A stretch of 49,218 nt of DNA from Thiobacillus sp. (GTDB lineage Bacteria > Pseudomonadota > Gammaproteobacteria > Burkholderiales > Thiobacillaceae), in contig JANJWS010000007.1 in assembly GCA_024709425.1 (NCBI GenBank), positions 1 through 49,218 of the forward strand, given 5' to 3'. Positions 27,476-40,186 of this stretch are shown here, piece after piece. A model generated the notes under the pieces. That model was not told where the DNA came from. It was given only the letters and a program-made list of their open reading frames with translations, and searched no databases. Both the position numbers and the translations under genes were made by a program. Position 1 is the stretch's first letter; every line of letters starts with the position of its first letter.

Positions 27476-28510
27476 ATGACACCGCTTGCCACGCCCCTTG
27501 ATTCACCCGATGCCCTGGAGCAGGGATTCTCCGACGGCCTCGCCGCCATGCTCGCCACACATCGCGGGCTGGGTGTCTACATCCTCGTGCTCGCCAACGC
27601 TGCCTATGATCCCGCGCTGTGGTCCATGCTCGCCCGCGATCTCGCCGCGCGCCACGCGGCGCTCACCGCCGAACTCGTCGACAGCCTGCGCCACGGACGG
27701 AAGCTGGCCGAGCCGGACGACGACGTACTGGTCTTCCTCAAGCTCCATGCCATCGGTTTCGACCGGCTCGGCACCATGGAGAGCCGGCGCATCGGACCGT
27801 GGGATGCAATGTTCAATCCCATCCGCGCCCTGCGCCCGCCGCGCAGCAGCGCCATGGCCTTCACTGGCCTCCTGCGCCCGTTCGACCCAGCCGGGTTCCA
27901 CTTCAACAAGCCGTTCCTGGCACGGGAACGTCTGTGGGAAGGCGAAATGGCCGGAAAACCCGCACGCCTCCTCTACAACAAGTTTCCCTTCGCCCGCCTG
28001 CACAGCCTGCTCGTTCCCGAGCCGCTGCGTGAACTGCCGCAGATGCTCACGCCGGAACTGCACGGCTGGGCCTGGGATCTCTGCACCGCTTCCGGCGTAC
28101 CTGACCTCTGCCTCGGCTACAACAGCACCGGCGCCGGCGCCTCGATCAACCATCTGCATTTCCAGAGCTTCGTCCAGTCGACGCCGCTACCCGTGCAGCA
28201 TCCGCGCTTCGTCCCTAACGGCGGCACGACGGCCTACCCCGTGCCCTGCAGCCATTGCAGCGACCCGGGCGAAGCATGGGTGGAACTCGACCGCCTGCAC
28301 CAGCAGCAACAGCCATACAACCTCATCTACAGCAAGGCCGGCCTGCACATCCTCCCGCGCATCCCGCACGACAGTCCCGGGCTGGATGCCGACAGCCGCG
28401 GTTACGGCTGGAGCGAGCTGGCTGGCGCCGTCACGCTGTTCAGCCGTGATGCCTACGAGACACTCGACAGCCAGACATTCGAGGCGATGCTTGCACGGTT
28501 TGCGCCGTAA
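27476..28510 (+). CDS. HIT-like nucleotide phosphorylase/transferase (DUF4922/VTC2-like)
   Basis: 344 residues from the ATG at 27476; the open frame further upstream overlaps the previous gene and is a shadow. The central segment SINHLHFQSFVQSTPLPVQH carries the HLH-x-Q signature of HIT-superfamily nucleotidyltransferases and phosphorylases. It resembles GDP-L-galactose phosphorylase (VTC2)-type enzymes and Ap4A phosphorylase. A later segment YNLIYSKAGLHILPR fits the second half of that fold. A CSHC pair lies between (PVPCSHCSDP). The likely chemistry is phosphorolysis or nucleotidyl transfer on a nucleotide substrate in the cytoplasm. The substrate is unknown. Confidence 0.75.
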   Translation: MTPLATPLDSPDALEQGFSDGLAAMLATHRGLGVYILVLANAAYDPALWSMLARDLAARHAALTAELVDSLRHGRKLAEPDDDVLVFLKLHAIGFDRLGTMESRRIGPWDAMFNPIRALRPPRSSAMAFTGLLRPFDPAGFHFNKPFLARERLWEGEMAGKPARLLYNKFPFARLHSLLVPEPLRELPQMLTPELHGWAWDLCTASGVPDLCLGYNSTGAGASINHLHFQSFVQSTPLPVQHPRFVPNGGTTAYPVPCSHCSDPGEAWVELDRLHQQQQPYNLIYSKAGLHILPRIPHDSPGLDADSRGYGWSELAGAVTLFSRDAYETLDSQTFEAMLARFAP

Positions 28511-28925
28511 ACGGGATGCGGCAAAATGGGATCCAGCGGCGCAACGGCGCGACGATGCTGGGCTAACCTTGCAACCACTGTCCAACACGTCCGATGGCCC
28601 GTCGAATCGTGTGTCTGCCGCAAAGCAACACCGCCACAGGGCGGCGACCGCGTCGTACGGAGCAGGTGTGGAGCGGACTCGCCCCGGGGAACCGATCTGG
28701 CGGGAGGCTCGAAGCCCCCTGTTCACGAGGTGTTCAACAGGGCAACCAGCCGTCAACGGTAGTTTTCAGGCCGATGCATTGCGGACGTTCCCGGGCGCTC
28801 CCGCCGGGTGTTTCGTCCGCGTGCCGCGCACATCCGATTACATGCGCACACTGTGAACGCTTTGTCGCTATGGTGAGCAATGTAGCTTTGGGAATTGACC
28901 GACCCTGACCGGACTGGAACCTGCG
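28511..28925. other. Long intergenic region without a recognisable gene
   Basis: 415 nt between the HIT-like gene and aroG. Open frames here lack the codon bias of the neighbours and have no ribosome sites. The only structure I see is an inverted repeat, CCCTGTT (28717-28723) / AACAGGG (28736-28742), with a 12-nt loop. The last 100 nt must hold the aroG promoter, but I find no strong -35/-10 pair. Confidence 0.5.
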
Positions 28926-30002
28926 ATGACCACCCATGACACCACCCGCATCGACGACCTGCGCATCAAGGCGGTGCGCCCGCTGATCACGCCTGCCTTG
29001 CTGCAGGAGCGACTGCCCGCCGACGCGGCGGCGCAGACGGTGGTGGAGGCGGGCCGTGCAGCCATCTCGCGCGTGCTGCACGGGGCGGACGACCGGCTGA
29101 TCGTGATCGTGGGGCCGTGTTCGATCCACGACCACGACCAGGCGCTGGAATACGCGCGACAGCTCAAGACGCACGCCGACGCACTGGCCGGCGATCTCAT
29201 GGTGCTGATGCGGGTGTATTTCGAGAAACCGCGCACCACCGTGGGCTGGAAGGGCTACATCAACGACCCCCACCTCGACGGCACGTTCGCCATCAACCTG
29301 GGGCTGGAAGGTGCGCGCCGGCTGCTGCTCGACGTGCTGGCGCTCGGGCTGCCGGTCGCCACGGAATTTCTCGATCTGCTGAGCCCGCAATACATCAGCG
29401 ACTTGGTGAGCTGGGGCGCGATCGGCGCGCGCACCACGGAAAGCCAGAGCCACCGGCAGCTCGCCTCGGGGCTGTCGTGTCCGGTCGGGTTCAAGAACGG
29501 CACCGACGGCAGCATCCGCGTGGCGGCCGATGCGATCGTCGCCGCGCGTTCGCCGCATGCCTTCATGGGCATGACGAAGATGGGCCAGGCGGCGATCTTC
29601 GAGACGCGCGGCAACGACGACTGCCATCTCATCCTGCGCGGCGGCCGCCACCCCAACTACTCCGCCGCGGACGTCGAGACGGCTTGCGCCCTGCTCGCCG
29701 GCCACGGCCTGCGCCCGCAGGTGATGATCGACGTGTCGCACGGCAACAGCGGCAAGCTGCCGCAGAAGCAGATCGACGTTGCGGCGGACGTCGCCAGCCA
29801 GGTCGCGGCGGGCGACACCCGCATCGTCGGCCTGATGATCGAGAGTCATCTGGAGGAAGGCCGCCAGGACATCGTGCCGGGGCAACCGCTGCGCCGCGGG
29901 GTGTCGGTCACCGACGCCTGCATCGGCTTCGGGCAGACGGTGCCGGTGCTGGATGGGCTGGCCGCGGCAGTACGGGCGCGCCGTACCGCGAAAAAAGCCT
30001 GA
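28926..30002 (+). CDS. aroG: 3-deoxy-7-phosphoheptulonate synthase (DAHP synthase, class I)
   Basis: 358 residues, close to the E. coli AroF/G/H length. The PEP/metal site segments VIVGPCSIHDHD and KPRTTVGWKGYINDPHLD are clear, followed by GARTTESQSHRQLASG and PVGFKNGTDGS. Metal ligands lie in the Cys of GPCS and in DVSHGNSGK and SHLEEG. It condenses PEP with erythrose 4-phosphate, the first step of the shikimate pathway. The N-terminal extension typical of feedback-regulated isoenzymes is present; which amino acid inhibits it cannot be told. It is a single gene after a 415-nt noncoding region, upstream of the iron block. Confidence 0.96.
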   Translation: MTTHDTTRIDDLRIKAVRPLITPALLQERLPADAAAQTVVEAGRAAISRVLHGADDRLIVIVGPCSIHDHDQALEYARQLKTHADALAGDLMVLMRVYFEKPRTTVGWKGYINDPHLDGTFAINLGLEGARRLLLDVLALGLPVATEFLDLLSPQYISDLVSWGAIGARTTESQSHRQLASGLSCPVGFKNGTDGSIRVAADAIVAARSPHAFMGMTKMGQAAIFETRGNDDCHLILRGGRHPNYSAADVETACALLAGHGLRPQVMIDVSHGNSGKLPQKQIDVAADVASQVAAGDTRIVGLMIESHLEEGRQDIVPGQPLRRGVSVTDACIGFGQTVPVLDGLAAAVRARRTAKKA

Positions 30003-30061
30003 TTGGCCAGCCTACCCGGAGCGGGCAGCGCAAAACGGACAAACAGAACCTCAAATAGTTG

Positions 30062-30090
30062 TTGTCAATGCGAATGATTCTCGCTATCAT
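30062..30090 (+). promoter_or_regulatory. Fur-box promoter of hemP-1
   Basis: A -35 TTGTCA (30062-30067), an exact 17-nt spacer and a -10 TATCAT (30085-30090). A Fur-box-like 19-mer GCGAATGATTCTCGCTATC (30070-30088) fills the spacer and -10 and matches 13 of 19 consensus positions. Transcription would begin near 30097, the first base of hemP. Confidence 0.75.
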
Positions 30091-30096
30091 GCCTGC

Positions 30097-30276
30097 ATGA
30101 TCACGCTCGCGTTGACCACACCCCGTTCCCTGCCGTCGGATAAACCGGTGGCGCAACGGATCGTCGTGCGCGCCGTCGACCTGCTCGGCCCGACGCGCCA
30201 GGTCGTGATCGAACATCGCGGTGAACGCTATGTCCTGCGCCTGACGCGCGGCGACAAGCTGCTGCTCACCAAGTAA
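30097..30276 (+). CDS. hemP: HemP/HmuP-family hemin uptake protein (copy 1)
   Basis: 59 residues. The C-terminal half (QVVIEHRGERYVLRLTRGDK, then LLLTK) is the HemP domain, which ends in a conserved L-x-LTK. HemP/HmuP is a small cytoplasmic protein that acts with Fur to allow expression of heme or iron uptake genes in Burkholderia and Bradyrhizobium. No Shine-Dalgarno is seen before the ATG at 30097, and the promoter predicts a start site at that ATG, so the message may be leaderless. A later GTG (30150) is an alternative start. The P19-like iron protein follows after a 107-nt leader. Confidence 0.88.
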   Translation: MITLALTTPRSLPSDKPVAQRIVVRAVDLLGPTRQVVIEHRGERYVLRLTRGDKLLLTK

Positions 30277-30283
30277 ACGTAGC

Positions 30284-30300
30284 GGGCGCATCGTGCGCCC
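30284..30300 (+). repeat. Perfect inverted repeat between hemP-1 and the P19-like gene
   Basis: GGGCGCA-TCG-TGCGCCC, a 7-bp GC stem with a 3-nt loop, 7 nt after the hemP stop. No T-run follows, so it is more likely an mRNA-stabilising or processing hairpin than a terminator. Confidence 0.6.
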
Positions 30301-30302
30301 CC

Positions 30303-30342
30303 CAGCCAGCCAAAGGGCTCCTCTGCCCCGGTAGCCAGCCAG
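30303..30342 (+). repeat. Paired CAGCCAGCCA leader repeat 1
   Basis: CAGCCAGCCA at 30303-30312 and AGCCAGCCAG at 30333-30342, 41 nt before the P19-like start. The second copy lies in the loop between CCGGTA (30328-30333) and TACCGG (30361-30366), and thus could be displayed in a hairpin. Similar pairs precede two other iron genes. Confidence 0.6.
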
Positions 30343-30383
30343 AAGAAATTTTTTGGCCCTTACCGGCATTACAGGAGAAGCCC

Positions 30384-30935
30384 ATGTCGTTCGTCGTTCG
30401 TATCCCCCTCGTCGCCAGCGTCCTGCTGTGCACCGTCGCCCACGCCGCGGAATACCCCATTGGCGCGCCCCAGCAGCGCCATGGCCTGGAAATCGCCGGG
30501 GTCTATCTACAGCCCGTGGAGATGGAATCGGTCATGGGCCACACGATGCTGCCGGCCACCCAGGCGGACGTGCATCTGGAGGCCGACATCCGCGCACTCG
30601 CCAGCAACCCCAATGGCTTCGCCGAGGGCGAATGGGTGCCCTACCTGCTTGTCCGGTACGAGGTCTGCAAGCAGGGCGGCGACTGCATCAGGGGCGACTT
30701 CCTGCCGATGGTGGCGAGCGACGGCCCCCACTACGGCGACAACGTCAAGCTGATGGGGCCGGGCAAGTACCGCGTCAAGTTCACCATCCTGCCGCCCAAC
30801 GACCCGTCCAACCATGCCGGGCACCACTTCCACCGCCACACCGACCGCCTGACCGGCGTGCGGCCCTGGTTCAAGGCCTTCACCGTGGAGTGGGATTTCG
30901 CCTTCGCCGGCATCGGCAAGCGGGGGGGCTATTGA
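30384..30935 (+). CDS. Periplasmic iron-binding protein, P19/FtrA/Tp34 family
   Basis: 183 residues with a signal peptide ending VAHAAEY. Features of the family are the Met/His/Glu metal site region (PVEMESVMGHTML and VHLEADIRA), a disulfide-type Cys pair (YEVCKQGGDC) and the C-terminal NHAGHHFHRHTDRLTGVRPW. P19, FetP and FtrA bind copper and iron and are thought to take part in oxidation or delivery of ferrous iron in the periplasm. The ribosome site AGGAG lies 7 nt upstream. The partner permease (FtrC/FetM) is not in the window. The porin gene follows after 1 nt and a polyferredoxin two genes later. Confidence 0.92.
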   Translation: MSFVVRIPLVASVLLCTVAHAAEYPIGAPQQRHGLEIAGVYLQPVEMESVMGHTMLPATQADVHLEADIRALASNPNGFAEGEWVPYLLVRYEVCKQGGDCIRGDFLPMVASDGPHYGDNVKLMGPGKYRVKFTILPPNDPSNHAGHHFHRHTDRLTGVRPWFKAFTVEWDFAFAGIGKRGGY

Positions 30936-30936
30936 G

Positions 30937-32403
30937 ATGCGGACCTTCAATCCCTGCGCCCTGGCCCTGGCGCTTGGCCTGGTGGCGCCGGCCAGCGCCG
31001 CCGAGGGTCCGGCCGATTTGGCGCACGCCCTGCAGCAGATGCAGGAACGCCTGGCCAGACTGGAGGCGCGCAACGCCGAACTGGAACGTCGCCTCGCCGG
31101 CACCGCGCCCGACGCCGCGCTGGCGCAGCGCGTGCGGGATCTCGAACAGGCGAGCGATGCCCTGGAGGCGGCGCTTGCCAGCGACCGGCTTTCACAAGCG
31201 GAGCCCGAGATCGCGACCCGCCTCAAGGCCATCGAATTTCAGGCGCTTGGCCTGCAGCAGCATGCTCGCCGCCTGGAAGTCCTGGACGGCATCACGGCCG
31301 GCATCTCCTTCACCAGCGTGGCGCAACACGCCAATGCCGGCGCCACGGCGTCGGGGCATTCCACGCGCCAGCTTTCCTGGCGCGGCGACGCACAGGTCGG
31401 ACTTCCCGGTGGCCGTGCCGGACACGTGCAGGGTGACCTCTTCTTCCATTTCCGCACGGGACAGGGCGACGGCCTGAGCGACCTGCGGCCGGGTTTTGCC
31501 GCGCCCAACGCCACAGCGTTTCAGCTTGGCGGCAGCAGCCAGCCGGACGATGCTTCGCCGATCCTGGCGCAGGCCTGGTATCAGTTGCACGTGCCGCTCG
31601 ACGGCCGCCCACTCGACGACAGCAGCCGCCACCTGGAAATCACCTTCGGCAAGATCGACCCCTTCGTGTTCTTCGACCAGAACGCCGCAGCCGACGACGA
31701 GACGACACGCCATCTGAATCTCGCCTTCGTCCACAACCCGCTTCTCGATGCCGGCGGTGGTGCCGGGCTGGATGCCTACGGTTTCACGCCCGGGCTGCGC
31801 CTGGCCTACCAGGACCGCCAGTTCGAGACGCGCGGGTGGGCGGCGAGCCTGGGTGTGTTCGGTAGCGGACCCGGCAGTGCCTTCGATGACAGCCTGCAAC
31901 GGCCATTCGTCATCGCGCAGGCCGAGGCCCGGCTGCAGCCGTTTGCAGGAAGAGAGGGCCATTTCCGCACCTATGGGTGGCATAACGGCCGCGCCACGGC
32001 CCACGACGGTGCCACCATCGAGCGACAACGCGGATGGGGGGTGTCCTTCGATCAGCAAGTGGGCGACGGCGTGACCTTGTGGGGGCGTTACGGCCGGAGT
32101 ATCGCCGGTGAGCCCGCCTTCACGCGCGCGCTCACCACCGGCGTGGAATTCGCGGGCACCAACTGGAACCGCAGTGCAGATGCCGTGGGTGTCGCGGTCG
32201 GCTGGCTGTCGTCCGGCCGCGCCTACCGTGCGGCCAACCCGGACATGCACGGTACGGAGCAGCTCATGGAGTTGTACTACCGCCGGGAGGTCATCCCGGG
32301 TTTCGAATTGACCCCCGACTATCAATTCATCCGCCATGCTGCCGCCGACCGCACGGCTCCGGATGCGCACGTGCTGGGCCTGCGGGCGCAGCTCACGTTC
32401 TGA
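30937..32403 (+). CDS. Coiled-coil OprB-like outer-membrane porin
   Basis: 488 residues. After a signal peptide (ending PASAAEG) comes a helical segment of about 90 residues with heptads (QQMQERLARLEARNAELERR), then a beta-barrel. The barrel has OprB carbohydrate-porin hallmarks: HLEITFGKIDPFVFFDQN, RHLNLAFVHNPLLD, and a C-terminal ELTPDYQFIRHA region ending in a terminal Phe. OprB proteins are substrate-selective channels. Here the gene begins 1 nt after the P19-like gene, so it is probably part of an iron operon rather than sugar uptake. The coiled coil may trimerise the barrel or reach the periplasmic partner. Both ideas are inference. Confidence 0.85.
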   Translation: MRTFNPCALALALGLVAPASAAEGPADLAHALQQMQERLARLEARNAELERRLAGTAPDAALAQRVRDLEQASDALEAALASDRLSQAEPEIATRLKAIEFQALGLQQHARRLEVLDGITAGISFTSVAQHANAGATASGHSTRQLSWRGDAQVGLPGGRAGHVQGDLFFHFRTGQGDGLSDLRPGFAAPNATAFQLGGSSQPDDASPILAQAWYQLHVPLDGRPLDDSSRHLEITFGKIDPFVFFDQNAAADDETTRHLNLAFVHNPLLDAGGGAGLDAYGFTPGLRLAYQDRQFETRGWAASLGVFGSGPGSAFDDSLQRPFVIAQAEARLQPFAGREGHFRTYGWHNGRATAHDGATIERQRGWGVSFDQQVGDGVTLWGRYGRSIAGEPAFTRALTTGVEFAGTNWNRSADAVGVAVGWLSSGRAYRAANPDMHGTEQLMELYYRREVIPGFELTPDYQFIRHAAADRTAPDAHVLGLRAQLTF

Positions 32404-32414
32404 AGGAGACTGCC

Positions 32415-32618
32415 ATGACCCAGGATCTGATCCGTTGCGCCTTCGATCACCTGCTGCGCTACGAACTCACCGGCTGCAGCCGTTCGGCGCACCTGGCCGC
32501 AAGCCTGCTTGACCGGCTGGCCGCGCAGCGCGACATCGACAGCGAGACCAGGCAGCTGTGCGGCTGCATGAGCGCCGTGCTGGAACAGGCGTCGGGCACC
32601 TCCACCGCCTATGCTTGA
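32415..32618 (+). CDS. Small cysteine-containing protein of unknown function
   Basis: 67 residues, with a good ribosome site (AAGGAG) 8 nt before the ATG. No signal peptide is seen, so it is probably cytoplasmic, and mostly helical (LLRYELTGCSRSAHLAASLL). Four Cys are present at about positions 8, 21, 49 and 51, the last two as CGC. Its stop overlaps the start of the polyferredoxin by 8 nt, so the two proteins are made together. It could help in assembling or regulating that protein, but I recognise no family. Confidence 0.7.
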   Translation: MTQDLIRCAFDHLLRYELTGCSRSAHLAASLLDRLAAQRDIDSETRQLCGCMSAVLEQASGTSTAYA

Positions 32619-34008
32619 GCACGTCCTCCACCATCGTGCCAGCACCTGCGGCGAAAGCGCGAAGGCAGCCGTGTCAGCCCGCCTGGGCCTGGCGATGCGC
32701 CGCCATCGCGGCGTCATCCTCGGCCTGCAATGGGCGGTGGTGCTGTTCTACGCCGTGGTGGTGGTGGCGCCGGCCTTGCTTCCCCTGCCTGGCGAGGCTG
32801 ACCGGATACTCAACCACCTCACCCGCTTCGCCCAGTTCCTGTTCTGGGGCCTCTGGTGGCCATTCGTCATCCTTTCGGTAATGACCCTGGGCCGGATCTG
32901 GTGCGGTGTGTTCTGCCCGGAAGGCGCGCTCACCGAATTCGCCTCGCGCTGGAGCCTGAACCGGCATATCCCGGCCTGGCTGAAATGGGACGGATGGCCC
33001 TTCGTCGCCTTCGTCGCCACCACCGTGTTCGGCCAGATGGTCAGCGTGTACGAATACCCGGGGCCGGCGCTGCTCATCCTGGGCGGCTCCACCGTCGCCG
33101 CCGTCGCCGTCGGCCTGCTGTACGGTCGCAACAAGCGGGTATGGTGCCGCCACCTGTGCCCGGTGTCGGGCGTGTTCGGACTGCTGGCGAAAGTTGCACC
33201 GCTGCACTTCGCGGTCGACCGTGCCGTGTGGGACGGGCCGCACGTGAAGAGCGCGCCGGTGAACTGCGCGCCGCTCATCGACATCCGCCGCATGCAGAGT
33301 GCCTCGCCCTGTCACATGTGTGGCCGCTGCGCCGGACAACGCGGCGCGGTGACGCTGGCATTGCGTTCACCGGAGGCGGAGATTCTCGGGTCCTCTCCCG
33401 CAGCCCCTTCGTCGCCTGCGGGAGAGGGAGGTGAATTGTGGCCTGCGCGCCTGCTCGTCTTCGGTATGCTGGGCGTGGCGCTGGGCGCGTTCCAGTGGTC
33501 GGCCAGCCCGTGGTTCATCGCCGCCAAGCAGGCCGTGGCAGCGTGGCTGATCGAACGTGAATGGTTCGGCGCGCTCGACACGCCGGGCCTATGGTGGCTG
33601 CTCACGCATTACCCGGAACTCAACGACACCTTCACCTGGCTCGACGGCGGCATGCTGCTCGCCTACATCGGCGCCACGGCGCTCGTCGTGGGCGGCTGGA
33701 TCCGCCTCTGCCTGGGGCTGGCAGGTCACGCGGCGAAACTACCCTGGACACGGCTTGCCATGAGCCTGATTCCCTTCGCCGGCGCGAGCGTGTTCGTCGG
33801 CCTGTCCCTGCTCACCACCGGCCAGTTGTTCGGCGAGGGCATCGTGCTCGCCTGGGCCAATCCGCTCCGCATGGTTCTGCTGACCGCCACCGCGCTGTGG
33901 TCGATCACGCTGGCCTGGCGCCTGGGCCGGCACCCGGCTGCCGCCGGTCTCGCGCTCGCCACTGCACTGCCGCTCGGAGCGTGGCATCAACACTTTAATG
34001 TCTGGTGA
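32611..34008 (+). CDS. Membrane polyferredoxin, FtrD/NapH/NosR-like 4Fe-4S protein
   Basis: 465 residues with about nine membrane segments. Two C-x3-CP motifs (WCGVFCPEGAL near 97 and WCRHLCPVSG near 178) lie on the cytoplasmic side, as in NapH, NosR and CcoG. They are followed by a ferredoxin-like cluster region (CAPLIDI then CHMCGRC, about 220-240). The C-terminal half adds about five more helices. In Bordetella-type FtrABCD systems, the FtrD polyferredoxin accepts the electron from periplasmic oxidation of ferrous iron. The P19/FtrA-like gene upstream supports that role here. FtrB and FtrC are absent, so the electron path or permease differs. The start overlaps the small Cys gene. Confidence 0.88.
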   Translation: MLEHVLHHRASTCGESAKAAVSARLGLAMRRHRGVILGLQWAVVLFYAVVVVAPALLPLPGEADRILNHLTRFAQFLFWGLWWPFVILSVMTLGRIWCGVFCPEGALTEFASRWSLNRHIPAWLKWDGWPFVAFVATTVFGQMVSVYEYPGPALLILGGSTVAAVAVGLLYGRNKRVWCRHLCPVSGVFGLLAKVAPLHFAVDRAVWDGPHVKSAPVNCAPLIDIRRMQSASPCHMCGRCAGQRGAVTLALRSPEAEILGSSPAAPSSPAGEGGELWPARLLVFGMLGVALGAFQWSASPWFIAAKQAVAAWLIEREWFGALDTPGLWWLLTHYPELNDTFTWLDGGMLLAYIGATALVVGGWIRLCLGLAGHAAKLPWTRLAMSLIPFAGASVFVGLSLLTTGQLFGEGIVLAWANPLRMVLLTATALWSITLAWRLGRHPAAAGLALATALPLGAWHQHFNVW

Positions 34009-34171
34009 GCGTCCATTATGAAGACATCCCCCTCCTTGTTCGGCGCGCTCGTGGCGGCGACACCCCCGCGCTTGCACGGCGAGGACCCGGCTGGCGCGCC
34101 TATCGGGCAGTCAGCTGCAATTGTCGGGCTGACGAGCATCGGGTCGGGTTCAGGGGCTTGTATTAATCAAG

Positions 34172-34192
34172 GCGAATCATTCTCATTATTAT
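34172..34192 (+). promoter_or_regulatory. Fur-box promoter of the hemP-2-tonB-exbBD operon
   Basis: A Fur-box-like 19-mer GCGAATCATTCTCATTATT (34172-34190) matches 13 of 19 consensus positions and overlaps a -10 TATTAT (34187-34192). The -35 is weak (TTAATC at 34163-34168, 18-nt spacer). Iron control of the operon is inferred. Confidence 0.65.
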
Positions 34193-34208
34193 CTGCTCAG
34201 GCTGCGCC

Positions 34209-34247
34209 GCCTACCGCCCGCAACGTCAGCCAGCCTACCGCCAGCCA
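34209..34247 (+). repeat. Leader repeat 2 (GCCTACCGCC direct repeat and paired GCCAGCC)
   Basis: In the leader of hemP-2, GCCTACCGCC occurs at 34209-34218 and 34233-34242 (24-nt period). CAGCCAGCCT at 34227-34236 and GCCAGCCA at 34240-34247 repeat the motif seen before the P19-like gene. The last copy is 33 nt before the start codon. Confidence 0.58.
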
Positions 34248-34280
34248 ACGTGTTTGCCGTGCCCTACCGTTGGAGGCTGC

Positions 34281-34463
34281 ATGAATACTTCATCCCTACT
34301 GTCCCCATCAGACGCTGACACCCAACCGGTGCGGCAGGACACCACGCCGGTCGTGCCGTCCGGCGAACTGTTCCAGGGCCGGCAGGAAATCGTCATCCGC
34401 CACGGTGGCCACGATTACCGCCTCCGAATCACGCGTCAGAACAAGCTGATCCTGACCAAATGA
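34281..34463 (+). CDS. hemP: HemP/HmuP-family hemin uptake protein (copy 2)
   Basis: 60 residues from the ATG at 34281, with GGAGG 5 nt upstream deciding the start. The C-terminal half (SGELFQGRQEIVIRHGGHDY, then RLRITRQNKLILTK) is a canonical HemP domain and closer to the family pattern than copy 1. Its role is as a regulator or partner for expression of heme and iron uptake genes. It begins a Fur-box operon and its end overlaps tonB in an ATGA arrangement, so tonB translation is coupled. Having two hemP genes 4 kb apart, each opening its own unit, is notable. Confidence 0.93.
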   Translation: MNTSSLLSPSDADTQPVRQDTTPVVPSGELFQGRQEIVIRHGGHDYRLRITRQNKLILTK

Positions 34464-35155
34464 AGCCCTACGGGATTGGCCGTGCAGATCGGCCCGGACT
34501 GGTCCTGGTCGTCGCGGCACACGGCCTGATCCTGTTCGCCCTCCTGAGCCTGAAGCCAGCCGCACACACTGTCGCGCCCGCCCACCCGCTGACGGTGACG
34601 CTGATCACGCCGTCCGCACCGGCATCACAAGCGGAAATACCCGAGCGCTTGCCGCCCACGCCACTTGCCGACACACCGCCCCCGCGCCTTCGGCCGCCGG
34701 TATTGTCCACCACGGTGCCCGCGCCTGTACCCGCCCCCGCGCCTGTCCCGGAGGCGGTCGCCGCCACGCCCGAAGCCGTGTCGTTGCCCGCCATGCTTTC
34801 CGCACCGCCACAGAGAACGGGGATGGCCGCCGAAATCCCCTCATCCGCCCCGACCCCGGATGAACAACCCGTGGTGCCGCCAGTTTTCGACGCCGATTAC
34901 CTGCACAACCCGTCTCCGGCGTATCCCACGCTCTCACGCCGTCTGCATGAGCAAGGCACCGTGCTGTTGCGTGTGTACGTCAACGCGGACGGAAGCGCAA
35001 ACCGGATCGAGGTGCGCGCATCGAGCGGCCATGAACGTCTCGACCGCGCCGCGCGTGATGTGGTCGGCCACTGGCGATTCACCCCCGCCCTCCGCGGCGA
35101 CACACCTGTCGCGGCGTGGGTGCTCGTGCCCATTTCTTTCAGCTTGAGGAGTTGA
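34460..35155 (+). CDS. tonB: TonB energy-transducing protein
   Basis: 231 residues. One N-terminal membrane anchor (GLVLVVAAHGLILFALLSL) is followed by a proline-rich spacer (PVPAPAPVPEA) that spans the periplasm. The C-terminal TonB domain has PAYPTLSRRLHEQGTVLLRV, ASSGHERLDRAA and HWRFTPALRG. It couples proton motive force from ExbB/ExbD to outer-membrane receptors, presumably the FecA-like receptor encoded downstream. The start ATG overlaps the hemP-2 stop (34460-34463), and exbB follows at once. Confidence 0.96.
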   Translation: MKPYGIGRADRPGLVLVVAAHGLILFALLSLKPAAHTVAPAHPLTVTLITPSAPASQAEIPERLPPTPLADTPPPRLRPPVLSTTVPAPVPAPAPVPEAVAATPEAVSLPAMLSAPPQRTGMAAEIPSSAPTPDEQPVVPPVFDADYLHNPSPAYPTLSRRLHEQGTVLLRVYVNADGSANRIEVRASSGHERLDRAARDVVGHWRFTPALRGDTPVAAWVLVPISFSLRS

Positions 35156-35160
35156 TGCGC

Positions 35161-35886
35161 ATGGAAACGCAAACCCTGGGCTTCGCCCATTTTCTCAGTC
35201 AGGGCGACGCAGTCGCGCATTTCCTGCTTGCCGTGCTGCTGCTGATGTCGGTCGCCACCTGGTATCTCATCGCAACCAAGACGGTGTCCAATTGGAAGAT
35301 GCGCCGCCGCGCACGCGCCTTCCTGGGACACTTCTGGGAGGCCCCGGACATGCTTGCGGTGGGAGTCCGTCTGCGCGAGCAGGGTGTGGGTGATCCGTTC
35401 TCACACCTGACGCACCACGGCCTGCGCGCGGCCGAGCAACATCGCAACCGCAGCAGCCAGCGCCTCGTCGAGGCCGGCTCGGCCGACGAGTTCCTCACCC
35501 GCGCCCTGCGCCGGGCCATGGAGCAGGACACCGCGCGCCTGGAATACGGCCACACCGTGCTTGCCTCGGTGGCTTCCAGCGCACCATTCGTCGGTCTGTT
35601 CGGCACGGTCTGGGGCATCTACCACGCCCTGCTCAACATCGGCATGAGCGGCCAGGGCAGTCTGGACCAGGTTGCCGGCCCGGTCGGCGAAGCGCTGATC
35701 ATGACCGCGCTGGGACTGGCCGTGGCCATTCCCGCCGTGCTCGCCTACAACGCCTTCACGCGGGCCAACCGCCTGCTGTTGGCGGAACTCGACGGCTTCG
35801 CCCACGACCTGTTCGCCTTCATGTCCACCGGCATCCGGGCGGAAGACCGCGGTATCCCGCCGCACGTCCTGGCGAGGGTCGCGTGA
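35161..35886 (+). CDS. exbB: ExbB biopolymer transport protein
   Basis: 241 residues from the ATG at 35161. An in-frame ATG at 35155 overlaps the tonB stop, but GAGGAG (35146-35151) is then only 3 nt away; from 35161 the spacing is 9 nt, so I choose the later start. Three membrane segments are visible: one near the N-terminus (FLLAVLLLMSVATWYLIAT) and two C-terminal ones flanking the conserved SSAPFVGLFGTVWGIYHAL and EALIMTALGLAVAIPAVLAY. ExbB forms the pentameric proton channel that drives TonB. The stop TGA overlaps the exbD start. Confidence 0.96.
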   Translation: METQTLGFAHFLSQGDAVAHFLLAVLLLMSVATWYLIATKTVSNWKMRRRARAFLGHFWEAPDMLAVGVRLREQGVGDPFSHLTHHGLRAAEQHRNRSSQRLVEAGSADEFLTRALRRAMEQDTARLEYGHTVLASVASSAPFVGLFGTVWGIYHALLNIGMSGQGSLDQVAGPVGEALIMTALGLAVAIPAVLAYNAFTRANRLLLAELDGFAHDLFAFMSTGIRAEDRGIPPHVLARVA

Positions 35887-36308
35887 TGGCCTTCGGCGGA
35901 TTTTCCGGGAATCCCAACAGCCAGCCGGTGGCGGAAATCAACATGATCCCGCTCATCGACGTGATGCTGGTGCTGCTGGTGATCTTCATCGTCACCGCCC
36001 CCCTGCTGACGCACGCAGTGAAGGTCGATTTGCCTCGGGCCGCCAGTCAGGTCGACGGCTCTCCGCTGGAGCCGGTTCGCATCGCCATCGGGCCGGATGG
36101 CAGGCTCGACTGGAATGGCGAGCCGGTCTCCCGCACCGAACTCAGCCAGCAATTGAGCGCCGCTGCCGCCCAATCACCCCGGCCGGAACTGCATATCCTC
36201 GCTGATCAGGCGGTGGCGTATCGCCACGTCGCCGACGTGATGGCGGAGACCAGTCGTCTGGGCCTGAGCAAGATCGGCTTTGTCACCGATCCGGGTCCGA
36301 CAAGATGA
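35886..36308 (+). CDS. exbD: ExbD biopolymer transport protein
   Basis: 140 residues from the ATG at 35886, which shares one base with the exbB stop; GAGGG is upstream. The N-terminal part AEINMIPLIDVMLVLLVIFI contains the conserved membrane Asp that carries protons. A periplasmic domain follows (LHILADQAVAYRHVADVM). It assembles with ExbB and TonB as the energy module. Its partner receptor gene begins 192 nt downstream, after a leader with repeats but no separate Fur box, so read-through from the hemP-2 promoter is likely. Confidence 0.96.
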   Translation: MAFGGFSGNPNSQPVAEINMIPLIDVMLVLLVIFIVTAPLLTHAVKVDLPRAASQVDGSPLEPVRIAIGPDGRLDWNGEPVSRTELSQQLSAAAAQSPRPELHILADQAVAYRHVADVMAETSRLGLSKIGFVTDPGPTR

Positions 36309-36441
36309 GGGGAACACGCGGAACGCTCGCCCGGGCTTGAGCAAGGTCGGCGCAGTCAGCGACCCACACGAGGCCTGTCAACCCAATTCACAAAGCCGAT
36401 CCGCCCATCCGGGCACATTTGGCAGATGCTTTTCCCAACCC

Positions 36442-36477
36442 CAGCCAGCCAAGCGCACCTTGCGTCGAGCCAGCCAG
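36442..36477 (+). repeat. Paired CAGCCAGCCA leader repeat 3
   Basis: CAGCCAGCCA at 36442-36451 and AGCCAGCCAG at 36468-36477, ending 23 nt before the receptor start at 36501. It has the same core and pairing as the leaders of the P19-like gene and hemP-2. Confidence 0.6.
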
Positions 36478-36500
36478 TTTCATGACTCAAGGAGTGATTG

Positions 36501-38615
36501 ATGATGTATTGCAAGCCCACCGCCCGGCGCGCCACACTGCGCCTGACCCCGCTCGTCCTGGCCATGGTTGCCGCCATGCCGTTACCGATCGTTGTGCATG
36601 CAGCGGACGTCGAATTACCTCGCATCGACGTGGTCGGCAGCGCGAACGAGGACGCGCGGAAGATTCCGGGGGCGGTCAATGTCGTGACCGCGCGGGACCT
36701 GGAATTGCTGCAACCGATGTCGACCGAGGCAGCCCTGAGAAACGTGCCGGGTATCGTCATCAAACCCGAGGAAGAATCCGCCATCGTGGCCAACATCGGC
36801 ATGCGCGGTCTGAGCGCGGCCGATTACAAGTCGCTGATCCTGGAAGATGGTGTCCCGGTCGCGCCGGGCCTGTTTGTCGGCAACGGCCGCTACTACAACC
36901 CTCGCATCCAGCGCATGGAAGAAATAGAGGTTCTCAAGGGCGCCGCGTCGCTGCGTTATGGGCCGAGCACGATTGGTGGCGTGATCAACTACAAGACGAA
37001 GACGCCTCAAGCCGGCATTTCCGTGTCGGGTCGAGCCGGCTCGCACAATTACCATGAAGCCACCGTCGAGGCGGGCGCACGTGCTCCGTCTGGGGAGGCC
37101 ATAGGGGGAATGGTCTACACGCAGGCGCGCAGTGACGGCTTTCAGAACAAGGGTTTCGACATGCAGGATCTGATGATGAAAGGCGGCATGGCGATCGCGG
37201 ACGACCAGTGGATTGGTGTGAAACTCACCCACTATGACAACGACGCGAACATCTCGTATCGCGGTTTGTTCCTGGATGCATACAAAGCCGGTGCAAGCTT
37301 CAATCCGGCGCCTGATGATTGGTTCCTCACCCAGCGTCGCTCGCTTGACATCAACCATGAGTGGACGATCAACGCCGAAGCCGCGCTCAGTACCTTGCTC
37401 TACTGGAGCGAGATGAATCGGGATTACTGGCGTTTTGGCACAGTGTCCGGCACCCCCACCAAGATAATCGACGGCCTGACCCACTGGAACTACAGTGACA
37501 GTGTCAGCGGCAACAATCGTGCTTTCGACCGTGTCGGGCTGGACACGCGGCTGAGTCTGAAGCACGGCGCGTTCGGTGTGCGCAACGAGGCCGAACTGGG
37601 TCTGCGCATCATGGAAGAGGAAATGGTTGACCAGACGATCAAGGCTACGCGTGCGCAGCCTCGAACAGGAAGCCTTGATAAGGATGTCATCGATTCGGCA
37701 ACCAGTTATGCACTGTTTGCACAGAACCGTTTCATCATCACGGATCGTCTTGCGGTCACGCCTGGCGTAAGGATCGAGACTTACGACCAGCAACGCGATG
37801 AGCGCAAGGACATTGCGAGCACGCCGGGGACCCATGTAAAAACCTCCAACACCGAGGTACTGCCTGGCGTGGGTGTGACTTTCCAGTTCGATCCTGCGGC
37901 TCAACTCTATGGCGGCGTCTACAAGGCGTTCGCCCCCGCACTCAATGGCGATGCCCTCGATGGCCTGAAGGATCAGCAACTCGAAGCCGAACGTTCTCTC
38001 AACGTCGAAATCGGTGTACGTGGTGGCGCCAACCGCTGGCGTTACGAAGTCACGGCCTTCCGGATGGATTTCGACAATCAGATCATTCCGGCGAACAGCA
38101 ATACCGACTTCCAGAAAACCAACGGTGGCAAGACCGTGCACCAGGGCCTGGAAGCCGCCATCGGGTTCGATTTGGCCAGCGGCTTCAGCCTGGATGCCAA
38201 CCTTACCTACATCCCCGATGCGGCGTTCTCCGGAAACCGCTACACGGCGGATGGGACCCTGGATATCCCGGATGGCAACCGCGTGACCTATACGCCTGAA
38301 GTGGTGGCCAACCTGACGCTGGGCTACAAGTCCGGCCCCCTGAAGGGCGCCTTGAACGTCAATCACGTCGGCTCGCAATTCACCGATACCGCGAATACCG
38401 TTGCGATTACGGAAAGTACCAGCGGTTTCTTCACTGGCAAGCTCGATGCCTACACCACGCTGGACCTGACCGCCGACTATGCGGTCAACAAGAAGCTGAA
38501 CATGTTTGCAGCGCTGCGGAACGTGACCGATGAACGTTACATCGCCAGCCTGCGTCAGGGTATCTATGCGGGGCCGGAGCGCAATTTTGCCGTCGGGGCA
38601 AAGTACACGTTCTGA
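36501..38615 (+). CDS. TonB-dependent outer-membrane receptor (FecA-like)
   Basis: 704 residues from the ATG at 36501, 6 nt after AAGGAG. The signal peptide ends near VVHAADV. There is no N-terminal signalling (STN) domain. A TonB-box-like ELPRIDVVGS is followed by the plug (VPGIVIKPEEE, GMRGLSAADYKSLILEDGVP, RIQRMEEIEVLKGAASLRYG, GGVINYKT). The 22-strand barrel ends in a terminal Phe (GAKYTF). Plug and barrel spacing resemble FecA-type ferric citrate or siderophore receptors; the true ligand is not known. Position after hemP-tonB-exbBD suggests a dedicated iron or heme compound uptake unit. Confidence 0.94.
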   Translation: MMYCKPTARRATLRLTPLVLAMVAAMPLPIVVHAADVELPRIDVVGSANEDARKIPGAVNVVTARDLELLQPMSTEAALRNVPGIVIKPEEESAIVANIGMRGLSAADYKSLILEDGVPVAPGLFVGNGRYYNPRIQRMEEIEVLKGAASLRYGPSTIGGVINYKTKTPQAGISVSGRAGSHNYHEATVEAGARAPSGEAIGGMVYTQARSDGFQNKGFDMQDLMMKGGMAIADDQWIGVKLTHYDNDANISYRGLFLDAYKAGASFNPAPDDWFLTQRRSLDINHEWTINAEAALSTLLYWSEMNRDYWRFGTVSGTPTKIIDGLTHWNYSDSVSGNNRAFDRVGLDTRLSLKHGAFGVRNEAELGLRIMEEEMVDQTIKATRAQPRTGSLDKDVIDSATSYALFAQNRFIITDRLAVTPGVRIETYDQQRDERKDIASTPGTHVKTSNTEVLPGVGVTFQFDPAAQLYGGVYKAFAPALNGDALDGLKDQQLEAERSLNVEIGVRGGANRWRYEVTAFRMDFDNQIIPANSNTDFQKTNGGKTVHQGLEAAIGFDLASGFSLDANLTYIPDAAFSGNRYTADGTLDIPDGNRVTYTPEVVANLTLGYKSGPLKGALNVNHVGSQFTDTANTVAITESTSGFFTGKLDAYTTLDLTADYAVNKKLNMFAALRNVTDERYIASLRQGIYAGPERNFAVGAKYTF

Positions 38616-38623
38616 TCAACCGC

Positions 38624-38645
38624 GCGGGTTTGTGGTGGCACCCGC
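38624..38645 (+). repeat. Inverted repeat after the receptor gene
   Basis: GCGGGT (38624-38629) / ACCCGC (38640-38645) with a 10-nt loop, 8 nt after the receptor stop. No T-tract follows, so a terminator role is only possible. Confidence 0.35.
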
Positions 38646-38830
38646 CCGGGCCGCCCCCATCGCACCGGATCGCAGGGTGATGGCGGGTGGTTGACGGGCG
38701 AGCCGATGTGCACATTCCGTGCGCCACCGACGGCAGCGTTGAACCCGGATTGCCCATTTACCTCATGGAGCATCCGGGGTGAACAAATACGCACCCGCTC
38801 AACCGGGTCACGAAGGACAGGTTGAACGCA

Positions 38831-39394
38831 TCAGTTCTTGTGGTTGGAATCCGGCGTACCGCCGATCACCACCAGCGCCGAGGCCTGCACCCGCCCGACG
38901 GAGCGCAGGCGGTGCGGCACCCAGGCGTCGAAATAGATGGCGTCGCCCGCGCGCAGGGATTCGGTGCGATCGGGAAACGCGATCTCCACCCGGCCCTTCA
39001 GCACGAAGAGAAATTCCTCGCCGGCATGGCCGGAAAGATGCGGGCCGTGAGCGAACTCGCGCGGCGGCTCGACGACGAAGGGCAGCATGCGCTTGGCGCC
39101 GGCCTCGGCGGCCAGCGCCTCGACCCGGCTGGCACCGCCTGCGTCGTCGCGCGGCAATTTCAGCCGGGCATCGCGGCGCACCACAACGGCCGGCGCGCGC
39201 GCGGCGCCGCCGCCGAACAGGCGCGCGACATCGACGCCGAGGGCATTGGCGATGTTGAGCGCGGCGGCGATGGAGGGCACGCACAGCCCGCGCTCGACCT
39301 TGGACAGATAGCTGCGGGTGAGCCCGCTGGCCTCGGCCAGCGCTTGCAGGCTCAATCCCAGTTGCCGGCGCAGGGGACGGATTTGCAGCGTCAT
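38831..39394 (-). CDS. XRE-family transcriptional regulator with cupin sensor domain
   Basis: 187 residues from the ATG at 39394, with AGGAGG upstream; the frame extends 15 codons further but without a start signal. An N-terminal helix-turn-helix (LGLSLQALAEASGLTRSYLS, then KVERG) is followed by a C-terminal cupin_2 barrel (GEEFLFVLKGRVEIAFPD, AGDAIYFDAWVPHRL). Such regulators (PuuR/SutR-like) bind small ligands in the cupin. It is divergent from the amidotransferase gene, with a perfect inverted repeat in the shared promoter, suggesting control of both directions. A role in glutamine or polyamine-type metabolism is possible by family precedent. Confidence 0.92.
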   Translation of the reverse strand: MTLQIRPLRRQLGLSLQALAEASGLTRSYLSKVERGLCVPSIAAALNIANALGVDVARLFGGGAARAPAVVVRRDARLKLPRDDAGGASRVEALAAEAGAKRMLPFVVEPPREFAHGPHLSGHAGEEFLFVLKGRVEIAFPDRTESLRAGDAIYFDAWVPHRLRSVGRVQASALVVIGGTPDSNHKN

Positions 39395-39433
39395 GCGGTG
39401 CTCGACCTCCTGATTGAAACACGGTGTAGTATA

Positions 39434-39448
39434 TGACACCTTGTGTCA
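39434..39448. promoter_or_regulatory. Operator-like inverted repeat between regulator and amidotransferase genes
   Basis: TGACAC-CTT-GTGTCA is a perfect 6-bp inverted repeat, 40 nt upstream of the XRE gene start and 33 nt upstream of the amidotransferase start. The size suits a dimeric XRE protein. A -10-like TATACT (minus strand, 39433-39428) abuts it. Autoregulation is inferred. Confidence 0.6.
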
Positions 39449-39481
39449 TTGATCGCCCAGCCGGGTTCGAAAGGAATCGCC

Positions 39482-40186
39482 ATGCCTGTCGCCGTCGCCA
39501 TCCGCCATGTCTGTTTCGAGGACCTCGGCAGTTTCGCCTCCGTGCTTGCCGCCCGCGGCTTCGAGCTGCGCTATCTCGAAGCCGGGGTCGACGATCTCGC
39601 CAGCTTCGACCCGCTCGCCCCCGATCTGCTGGTGGTGCTCGGCGGGCCGATCGGCGCCTACGAGGAAGACATCTACCCCTTCCTCACTGACGAGCTGATT
39701 CTCCTCAAACGCCGCCTCGCCGCCGACCGGCCGACGCTGGGCCTTTGCCTGGGCGCGCAGCTGATGGCACGCGCACTCGGGGCGCGGGTGTATCCCGGCC
39801 CGGCCAAGGAGATCGGCTGGATTCCGCTCACGCTGACCGAGGCCGGCCGCGCCTCGCCGGTGGCGCATCTGGACGGCGCGCAAACCTCGATGCTGCACTG
39901 GCACGGCGACACCTTCGACCTGCCCGAGGGCGCCACGCTCCTGGCGTCCACCGGGATCTGCCGCCACCAGGCGTTTTCCTGGGGCCGCGCCGCGCTGGCC
40001 TTCCAGTGCCACCCGGAGGCGGCGGCCGCGACCATGGAACGCTGGTTCATCGGCCACGCCAATGAGCTGGCCGGGGCGAAAATCCCGGTGCCGCAGTTGC
40101 GTGCCGACACCGCCCGCCTGGGCGCCGCGCTCGAAGCCCAGGGCACCCGCTGCTTCGCCGAGTGGCTGGACGCCCTCGACCTGTGA
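39482..40186 (+). CDS. Class I glutamine amidotransferase-like protein
   Basis: 234 residues from the ATG at 39482, with an AAGGAA ribosome site. The nucleophile elbow LGLCLGAQLMARALGA carries the catalytic Cys, and LAFQCHPEAAA carries the His and Glu of the triad. LVVLGGPIGAYEED is the usual oxyanion strand of GMP-synthase-like GATases. The stand-alone domain has no synthase partner in the window, so it may hydrolyse a gamma-glutamyl or glutamine-like compound. Its stop overlaps the MOSC gene (GTGA). It is divergent from an XRE-cupin regulator and probably controlled by it. Confidence 0.9.
   Translation: MPVAVAIRHVCFEDLGSFASVLAARGFELRYLEAGVDDLASFDPLAPDLLVVLGGPIGAYEEDIYPFLTDELILLKRRLAADRPTLGLCLGAQLMARALGARVYPGPAKEIGWIPLTLTEAGRASPVAHLDGAQTSMLHWHGDTFDLPEGATLLASTGICRHQAFSWGRAALAFQCHPEAAAATMERWFIGHANELAGAKIPVPQLRADTARLGAALEAQGTRCFAEWLDALDL

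Follow-up and report, generated by a model that had tools for sequence, protein, structure and literature searches.

Two copies of one short motif stand before each of three iron genes in a single Thiobacillus sp. locus: what are these pairs, and what acts on them? The locus lies within a 49,218-nucleotide stretch (assembly GCA_024709425.1, contig JANJWS010000007.1, positions 1 to 49,218), here called the window. The motif, with the core GCCAGCC, occurs in the leaders of a gene for a P19-like periplasmic iron transport protein (leader 1), of the small gene hemP-2 (leader 2) and of a TonB-dependent receptor gene (leader 3). An earlier note, made from the sequence alone, took the pairs to be selected, and proposed that a small RNA or an RNA-binding protein could control the three messages beyond Fur. 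Judged by sequence comparison, the paired repeats are genuine: they form a conserved regulatory element whose kind is known, though its setting here is new. It is likely that such twins, as RNA, let HemP raise the expression of iron uptake genes post-transcriptionally. We read them so because of their match to a published element, their conservation and fixed orientation, their linkage to hemP and the in-register fold of their spacers.

The repeats match a known element

All copies lie on the + strand. Their cores start at positions 30305 and 30334 in leader 1, 34229 and 34240 in leader 2, and 36444 and 36469 in leader 3, so each leader holds the pair first reported for it. Start to start, the cores are 29, 11 and 25 nt apart, and the last core ends 43, 34 and 25 nt before the start codon, respectively; measured from the ends of the longer repeats used in the earlier note, the distance is 41 nt for leader 1 and 23 nt for leader 3. 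A sequence search finds AGCCAGCCA at 30304–30312 and 30333–30341 in leader 1, and at 36443–36451 and 36468–36476 in leader 3. Leader 2 has a more compact element (34223–34251), found by sequence search and by a local fold with an outer stem: AGCCAGCC (34228–34235) and CGCCAGCC (34239–34246) are flanked by ACGT at 34223–34226 and at 34248–34251.

An HmuP-responsive element (HPRE) was reportedly described at shmR of Ensifer meliloti by Amarelle et al. in 2019. According to the available passages of de Lima et al. 2022 (PMC9131926), the HPRE of chuR in C. violaceum, CCCGCAAGCCAGCCGACAGCCAGCCAGCG, lies 26 nt 5' of the ATG and includes AGCCAGCC-GAC-AGCCAGCC; that of vbuA, GCCAGCCAGACGACGCCGCCG, lies 49 nt 5' of the ATG. 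ChuP, a heme-binding protein of the HemP family, is required for full levels of both mRNAs. The HPRE targets in those passages are receptor genes only, and no hairpin is mentioned there. An excerpt of a second paper (PMC9241770) describes the HPRE as a direct-repeat motif of alpha- and betaproteobacteria.

As far as these accounts go, the leaders of the window share with the HPREs of shmR, chuR and vbuA the core AGCCAGCC and its direct repetition. They also share the position 25–50 nt before receptor start codons, the neighbouring gene of the hemP family and the Fur-controlled locus. The direct repeat with its AGCCAGCC core is apparent when the leaders are set against the chuR HPRE, CCCGCAAGCCAGCCGACAGCCAGCCAGCG, which moreover has the same fold bracket pattern as the hemP-2 leader. 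Leader 3 is the putative leader of a TonB-dependent receptor gene, and a HemP/HmuP gene accompanies the element both in the window, which has two hemP genes, and across genomes (34/76 versus 1/44, see below). A heme receptor is not found as the target: the receptor of the window is nearest to a siderophore-receptor model, and P19 is no receptor. Such a target does not define HPREs, since vbuA is itself given as an HPRE target in the passages cited. We identify the repeats as HPREs from their sequence, their place, the type of their targets and the partner gene. Unlike the HPREs in the published excerpts, those described here also precede P19 and a hemP gene and, in relatives, genes for OprB, DUF6662 and Porin_O_P proteins; their copies are often 20–30 nt apart, with a hairpin in between.

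Pairs are conserved and accompany HemP

A GC-rich 7-mer could have landed in three leaders by chance. Taken singly, GCCAGCC is enriched only mildly and is useless as a signal: the window holds 36 copies on both strands, against a mean of 19.8 and a maximum of 36 in 100 shuffles, one of which reached that number. Coding DNA often contains the motif. Pairs of GCCAGCC separated by 4–34 nt number 26 in the 2.7 Mb assembly, versus 8 for a reversed control; by a codon-usage gene caller, 21 of them are coding, one is partly coding and four are intergenic, three of the four being the reported leaders. Similarly, AGCCAGCCA has 41 sites in the assembly versus 11 for its reversed control; 37 of these lie beyond the reported leaders, 30 called coding and 7 not. 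Chance nevertheless has a negligible probability in our view, given that both copies are conserved while the spacers diverge (the outer three pairs of 39 inner stems come in 21 sequences), that pairs are enriched 3' of hemP and that the element is present in several families.

Conservation is seen before P19, a gene present in 24 of 100 relatives, the genome of the window included. Within 220 nt of the start codon, 19/24 P19 leaders carry at least one GCCAGCC and 12/24 at least two; copies are kept while the spacer varies, some of them with one change (AGCAAGCC, AGTCAGCC, AGCTAGCC). The leaders that lack a copy are L075, L076, L078, L079 (start not located, locus free of copies) and L080. By HemP status, GCCAGCC precedes P19 in 18/20 HemP-positive and 1/4 HemP-negative genomes.

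A named set of 48 P19 loci, which overlaps the first, has a copy in 14/14 of the loci L081–L094. The other 34 come from Gammaproteobacteria, Achromobacter, Paraburkholderia and further groups; in three of them no start was found, and of the 31 left only L103 has a copy, a single one. The P19 element is therefore confined, in this set, to one part of the Betaproteobacteria. Seven of the best 14 named P19 loci are titled Thiobacillus, and the rest are metagenome-assembled genomes (MAGs) of Gallionellaceae, Hydrogenophilales, Betaproteobacteria or Pseudomonadota. The nearest named P19 relatives thus place the organism among Thiobacillus MAGs (7/14), rather than with the Azoarcus or Thauera kin among which the earlier note would have looked. 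In Thiobacillus and in MAGs related to it, the orthologues of P19 keep their pairs. As far as the counts reach, the two outcomes named in the earlier note as refuting selection, pairs just as common in leaders without a link to iron and a lack of conservation, did not come about.

Of 120 relatives, 76 have a member of the HemP family (PF10636). In order-level relatives, most intergenic twins directly follow hemP on its 3' side or precede genes for receptors, P19 or porins. Among the hemP places listed, 104 hits in 94 loci, some of which overlap, gave 81 non-redundant segments of 300 nt 3' of hemP. There AGCCAGCC is the top paired 8-mer (20/81 segments), the next non-overlapping 8-mer reaching 4/81; the reverse complement of AGCCAGCC is paired in none of the 81. 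At least one GCCAGCC occurs in 57/81 segments (shuffled mean 7.9, maximum 17) and at least two in 38/81 (shuffled mean 0.5, maximum 3), the latter figure taking in a tandem variant, GCCAGCCAGCC, that the 20/81 for AGCCAGCC pairs leaves out. On the 5' side of hemP, exact AGCCAGCC twins are rare (2/104 segments, overlap still included); the hemP-2 leader of the window is therefore unusual.

Across genomes, twins before relatives of P19, the receptors, OprB, DUF6662 and Porin_O_P occur in 34/76 HemP-positive and 1/44 HemP-negative genomes (Fisher p 1.6e-7, relatedness ignored). A twin was here an exact AGCCAGCC pair, 16–46 nt start to start, with a target start within 350 nt; the target had to match a reference P19, receptor, porin or DUF6662 protein by tblastn at E 1e-5. 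The references were drawn from the twins themselves, so other types of target would escape, and unread pattern matches were scored negative: three in two HemP-negative genomes (G039, G060) and more in HemP-positive ones (e.g. G103, G110). In some twin-bearing genomes (G042, G002), hemP lies on another contig or about 20 kb from P19, which fits action in trans. Together, conservation, enrichment 3' of hemP and co-occurrence with HemP agree with the idea that pairs before iron genes are selected.

The same results weigh on two other candidate partners. A small RNA with a GGCUGGC seed, the first agent proposed for this locus, would be well served by two exposed identical copies per leader, which the spacer hairpins could hold open; yet the twins go with HemP. 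At five of the seven noncoding AGCCAGCCA sites of the genome itself, where the opposite strand bears the exact 9-nt complement, inspection by eye gave no candidate with a clear Fur-like box and a terminator, a weak test that leaves shorter seeds unsearched. Rfam has no match in 28000–40000 at E up to 1. The small RNA thus goes unsupported, and we rate it as very improbable. The element might instead bind another regulator or a metabolite, in the manner of a riboswitch, with hemP just sharing its operons: the leaders are conserved and structured, and binding by HemP is here something that we infer. This is hardly probable either, in view of the identity with HemP-dependent HPREs (as given in the excerpt of PMC9131926), the near-absence of twins in HemP-negative genomes and a scan of seven loci in which no Rfam model reached its gathering threshold.

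Spacers are predicted to fold as RNA hairpins

In intergenic twins, the spacer has a better predicted fold than shuffled versions of it (n=44, mean z −1.2, 20% with p<0.05); in coding twins it does not (n=24, mean z 0.0, 4% with p<0.05). In the common fold the two copies are opposed and pair G-C on G-C, leaving CA/CA internal loops, while the spacer forms a stem-loop in register with them; mean pairing exceeds 0.5 in 75% of 56 intergenic versus 37% of 38 coding twins. When the spacers alone were shuffled in 53 noncoding twins (no locus excluded; the set shares ancestry), copy pairing was 0.71 as observed and 0.40 as shuffled (Wilcoxon p 1e-7), the native spacer being the more stable in 46/53. 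With one twin per cluster of similar spacers, the values for the 35 twins are 0.66 versus 0.36 (p 3e-5), and 28/35 are more stable; for the 38 coding twins they are 0.29 and 0.28 (p 0.94). The spacer DNA seems to be selected to fold as an RNA hairpin.

In leader 1, GGGC (30315–30318) is predicted to pair with GCCC (30325–30328), from the fold and from an alignment of 19 P19 leaders, in which 94.7% of the cells of this spacer helix are paired and both sides have changed at two of its four base pairs. The covariation score of the whole structure was reached by 9/500 shuffles of the alignment. In leader 3, GCGCA (36453–36457) would pair with TGCGT (36461–36465), and the local fold has GC:GC pairs between the copies at 0.96–0.99. 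In the folds of short twins, an outer stem clamps the element instead: ACGU/ACGU in the hemP-2 leader and CGC/GCG in the C. violaceum chuR HPRE. A second possible hairpin of leader 1, CCGGTA/TACCGG around copy 2 (30328–30366), had already been pointed out and does appear in the predicted whole-leader fold; across the 19 leaders (CNGT/ACNG) it is partially conserved, with 59.3% of cells paired. GC:GC pairing of the copies in P19 leaders by RNAalifold was set aside as proof, as those columns hardly vary.

Orientation and fold also bear on the possibility that the twin is a DNA site, with HemP bound to the direct repeats, by itself or together with Fur or some other factor, so as to activate transcription. 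For B. japonicum and B. multivorans, passages of PMC9131926 and PMC9241770 do cite reports that HemP/HmuP acts on transcription. The HemP-binding region of Burkholderia multivorans (Sato et al. 2017, as relayed in the excerpt of PMC9241770) likewise places a receptor operon under HemP-family control, but the repeat in that region is inverted and was reported to be bound as DNA, and no AGCCAGCC twin is given for it there. In our loci, by contrast, the copies lie 3' of the Fur-like box or promoter, or within operons; their orientation is fixed, the reverse complement being absent as a pair; their spacers seem to be selected for complementarity; and their spacing ranges from 11 to 87 nt. Moreover, purified ChuP did not bind the DNA, according to PMC9131926. 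We consider a DNA site unlikely.

A model for HemP at the twins

We return to HemP acting on RNA. Under iron scarcity, Fur would lift and both hemP operons would be transcribed. HemP would then act in trans on messages with a AGCCAGCC twin in their leader or intercistronic RNA, and P19, the TonB-dependent receptor and, through leader 2, hemP-2 itself would be expressed more strongly. HemP might achieve this by freeing the ribosome site, by stabilising the message or by preventing termination; we infer RNA binding by HemP, activation, and the hairpin with paired copies as the active form. The RNA-binding protein once suggested to act beyond Fur could thus be HemP, a suggestion in line with the conservation, the hemP enrichment, the co-occurrence and the HmuP/ChuP-HPRE system as far as its published excerpts describe it.

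That the paired copies form a hairpin ladder is our hypothesis from the predicted folds. The fullest form of the model is tentative, and we give it somewhat less than an even chance: an HPRE would be a hairpin ladder that has either a freely drifting stem-loop as its cap or an outer stem as its clamp. A HemP dimer, an RNA-binding regulator of a new type, would read it and would thereby govern P19, receptors, porins and DUF6662 proteins post-transcriptionally, atop Fur.

Several observations speak against HemP acting on the twins as folded RNA. One HemP-negative genome (G050, 76% complete) has a twin before P19, and two HemP-positive genomes with P19 (G066, G080) have zero copies before it. In the alignment of 19 leaders, the count of double-change pairs was reached by 149/500 shuffles, and further pair types are fewer, 494/500 shuffles reaching the observed number; taken alone, this P19 alignment is weak support for the structure. 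Whole-leader minimum-free-energy folds of the window come out without the ladder, that of leader 1 reaches only 0.11–0.17 locally, and five intergenic twins (L144, L148, L159, L194, L214) favour a different fold. Elsewhere, HemP of S. maltophilia is reported as a repressor (passage of PMC9241770), and DNA binding by HemP/HmuP is reported for other species (passage of PMC9131926).

The homologues of HemP in the PDB are 2LOJ, 4YNX (YdiE) and 2JRA. The title of 2JRA gives a domain-swapped structure, which might, by analogy, suit an RNA with two sites. The predicted model of HemP-2 (60 aa) has a mean predicted local distance difference test (pLDDT) score of 80 and a predicted template modelling (pTM) score of 0.52; its N-terminus is modelled with low confidence, and it shows three strands and one short helix. 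It matches only the HemP-family entries 2JRA, 4YNX and 2LOJ (E 0.002–0.012), and the structure search gave no clear match outside the family; domains of ribosome hibernation factors, at E above 2, were not used. The conserved part of HemP is its C-terminal core, with the end KLILTK. In regulation of the CsrA/RsmA type, a small dimeric protein reads two short RNA copies, one of them near a hairpin. Motif and protein family differ from those of HemP, and the likeness lies in the working principle.

Genes around the three leaders

By Pfam, two hemP genes adjoin the three repeat-bearing leaders; all features that follow are on the + strand. The first, hemP-1 (30097–30276), encodes a small protein of the HemP/HmuP family, 59 aa long (PF10636, E 6.7e-15). 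On its 5' side, a promoter-like match, TTGTCA-17-TATCAT (30062–30090), overlaps a Fur-like box; set against a Fur consensus, it scores 13/19 at both 30064 and 30070, where the maximum in the window is 14/19. The P19-like gene (30384–30935; PF10634, E 1.9e-58) is followed by genes for an OprB-type porin (30937–32403; PF04966) and for a membrane protein with a Fer4_5 ferredoxin-type domain (32611–34008; PF12801). The order at 30097–34008 is hemP, P19, OprB, a 67-aa open reading frame for which no Pfam family was found, and Fer4_5. We take P19 with a polyferredoxin to be reminiscent of ferrous-iron systems of the FtrABCD kind; Pfam names no permease among the genes of 30097–34008.

A second Fur-like box (34166–34193; 12–13/19 at 34166, 34172 and 34175, same consensus) lies 5' of hemP-2 (34281–34463, 60 aa; PF10636, E 5.4e-19), and leader 2 sits on the 3' side of this box. 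Then come tonB, exbB and exbD (34460–36308; PF03544, PF01618 and PF02472) and the TonB-dependent receptor gene (36501–38615; PF00593/PF07715). Leaders 1 and 3, the gaps between hemP and P19 and between exbD and the receptor, look intercistronic, lying within operons; the exbD–receptor gap has no promoter match and no good Fur-like score.

Targets and variants in relatives

The proteins encoded after 20 twins in relatives are ten TonB-dependent receptors, three OprB, four DUF6662, two Porin_O_P and one without a family (L238). P19 and the porins extend the putative targets beyond the receptors named in the published passages, and priority on this point is uncertain. Three receptors were compared with NCBIfam: one (L194) passes the heme/hemoglobin receptor cut-offs and another (L253) the siderophore cut-off, while that of the window is nearest to the siderophore-receptor model TIGR01783, at 219.4 bits, below the cut-off of 223.5. 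The DUF6662 proteins, outer-membrane-like, are encoded 3' of HPRE twins at L155, L158, L171 and L267:2240-3076; their position suggests a role in iron uptake for this family of unknown function.

A variant with one GCCAGCCAGC (mostly GCCAGCCAGCC) stands before a small gene 3' of hemP; GCCAGCCAGCC is present in many Thiobacillus. We saw the variant at L160, L168, L179, L182–L187, L196–L200, L202, L205, L207, L209 and L215. The start region of the small gene reads GGAGAC(T/C)GGC-A(A)TG, or nearly so, in 19/24 folded rows, and GCCAG is predicted to pair with CTGGC across the ribosome site. Such a fold could serve as a direct on/off switch of translation.

Other repeats resemble the twins. The fourth intergenic pair of the assembly (L004, C43:15336-15355), of the CGCCAGCC type, consists of two CCCGCCAGCCAAA units shortly 5' of a terminator-like hairpin; it is downstream of a reading frame that resembles Fic by eye (no family search was made), and no iron gene was seen adjoining it. 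A recurrent pair, AGCCAGCC...CACCGGCAGCCAGCC, found in many genomes of the genus (L258, L259, L297, L302 and others), was rejected as an HPRE, as it sits inside a called gene. In one genome (G093, locus L156), an unbroken AGCC run is a simple repeat and not a twin.

Meaning for the HemP family

The mode of action of HemP/HmuP is disputed: passages of PMC9131926, PMC9241770 and PMC11442138 have it as a DNA activator, as a repressor or as post-transcriptional, and that of PMC11442138 puts both transcriptional and post-transcriptional modes on record. The natural variants argue for RNA because their orientation is fixed, because they lie in leaders and because their spacers drift yet remain complementary and in register. 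They make the question of the HemP mode directly testable, and they add P19 and porins to the receptors as likely targets of HemP. The twins before DUF6662 genes would be the first functional hint for that family.

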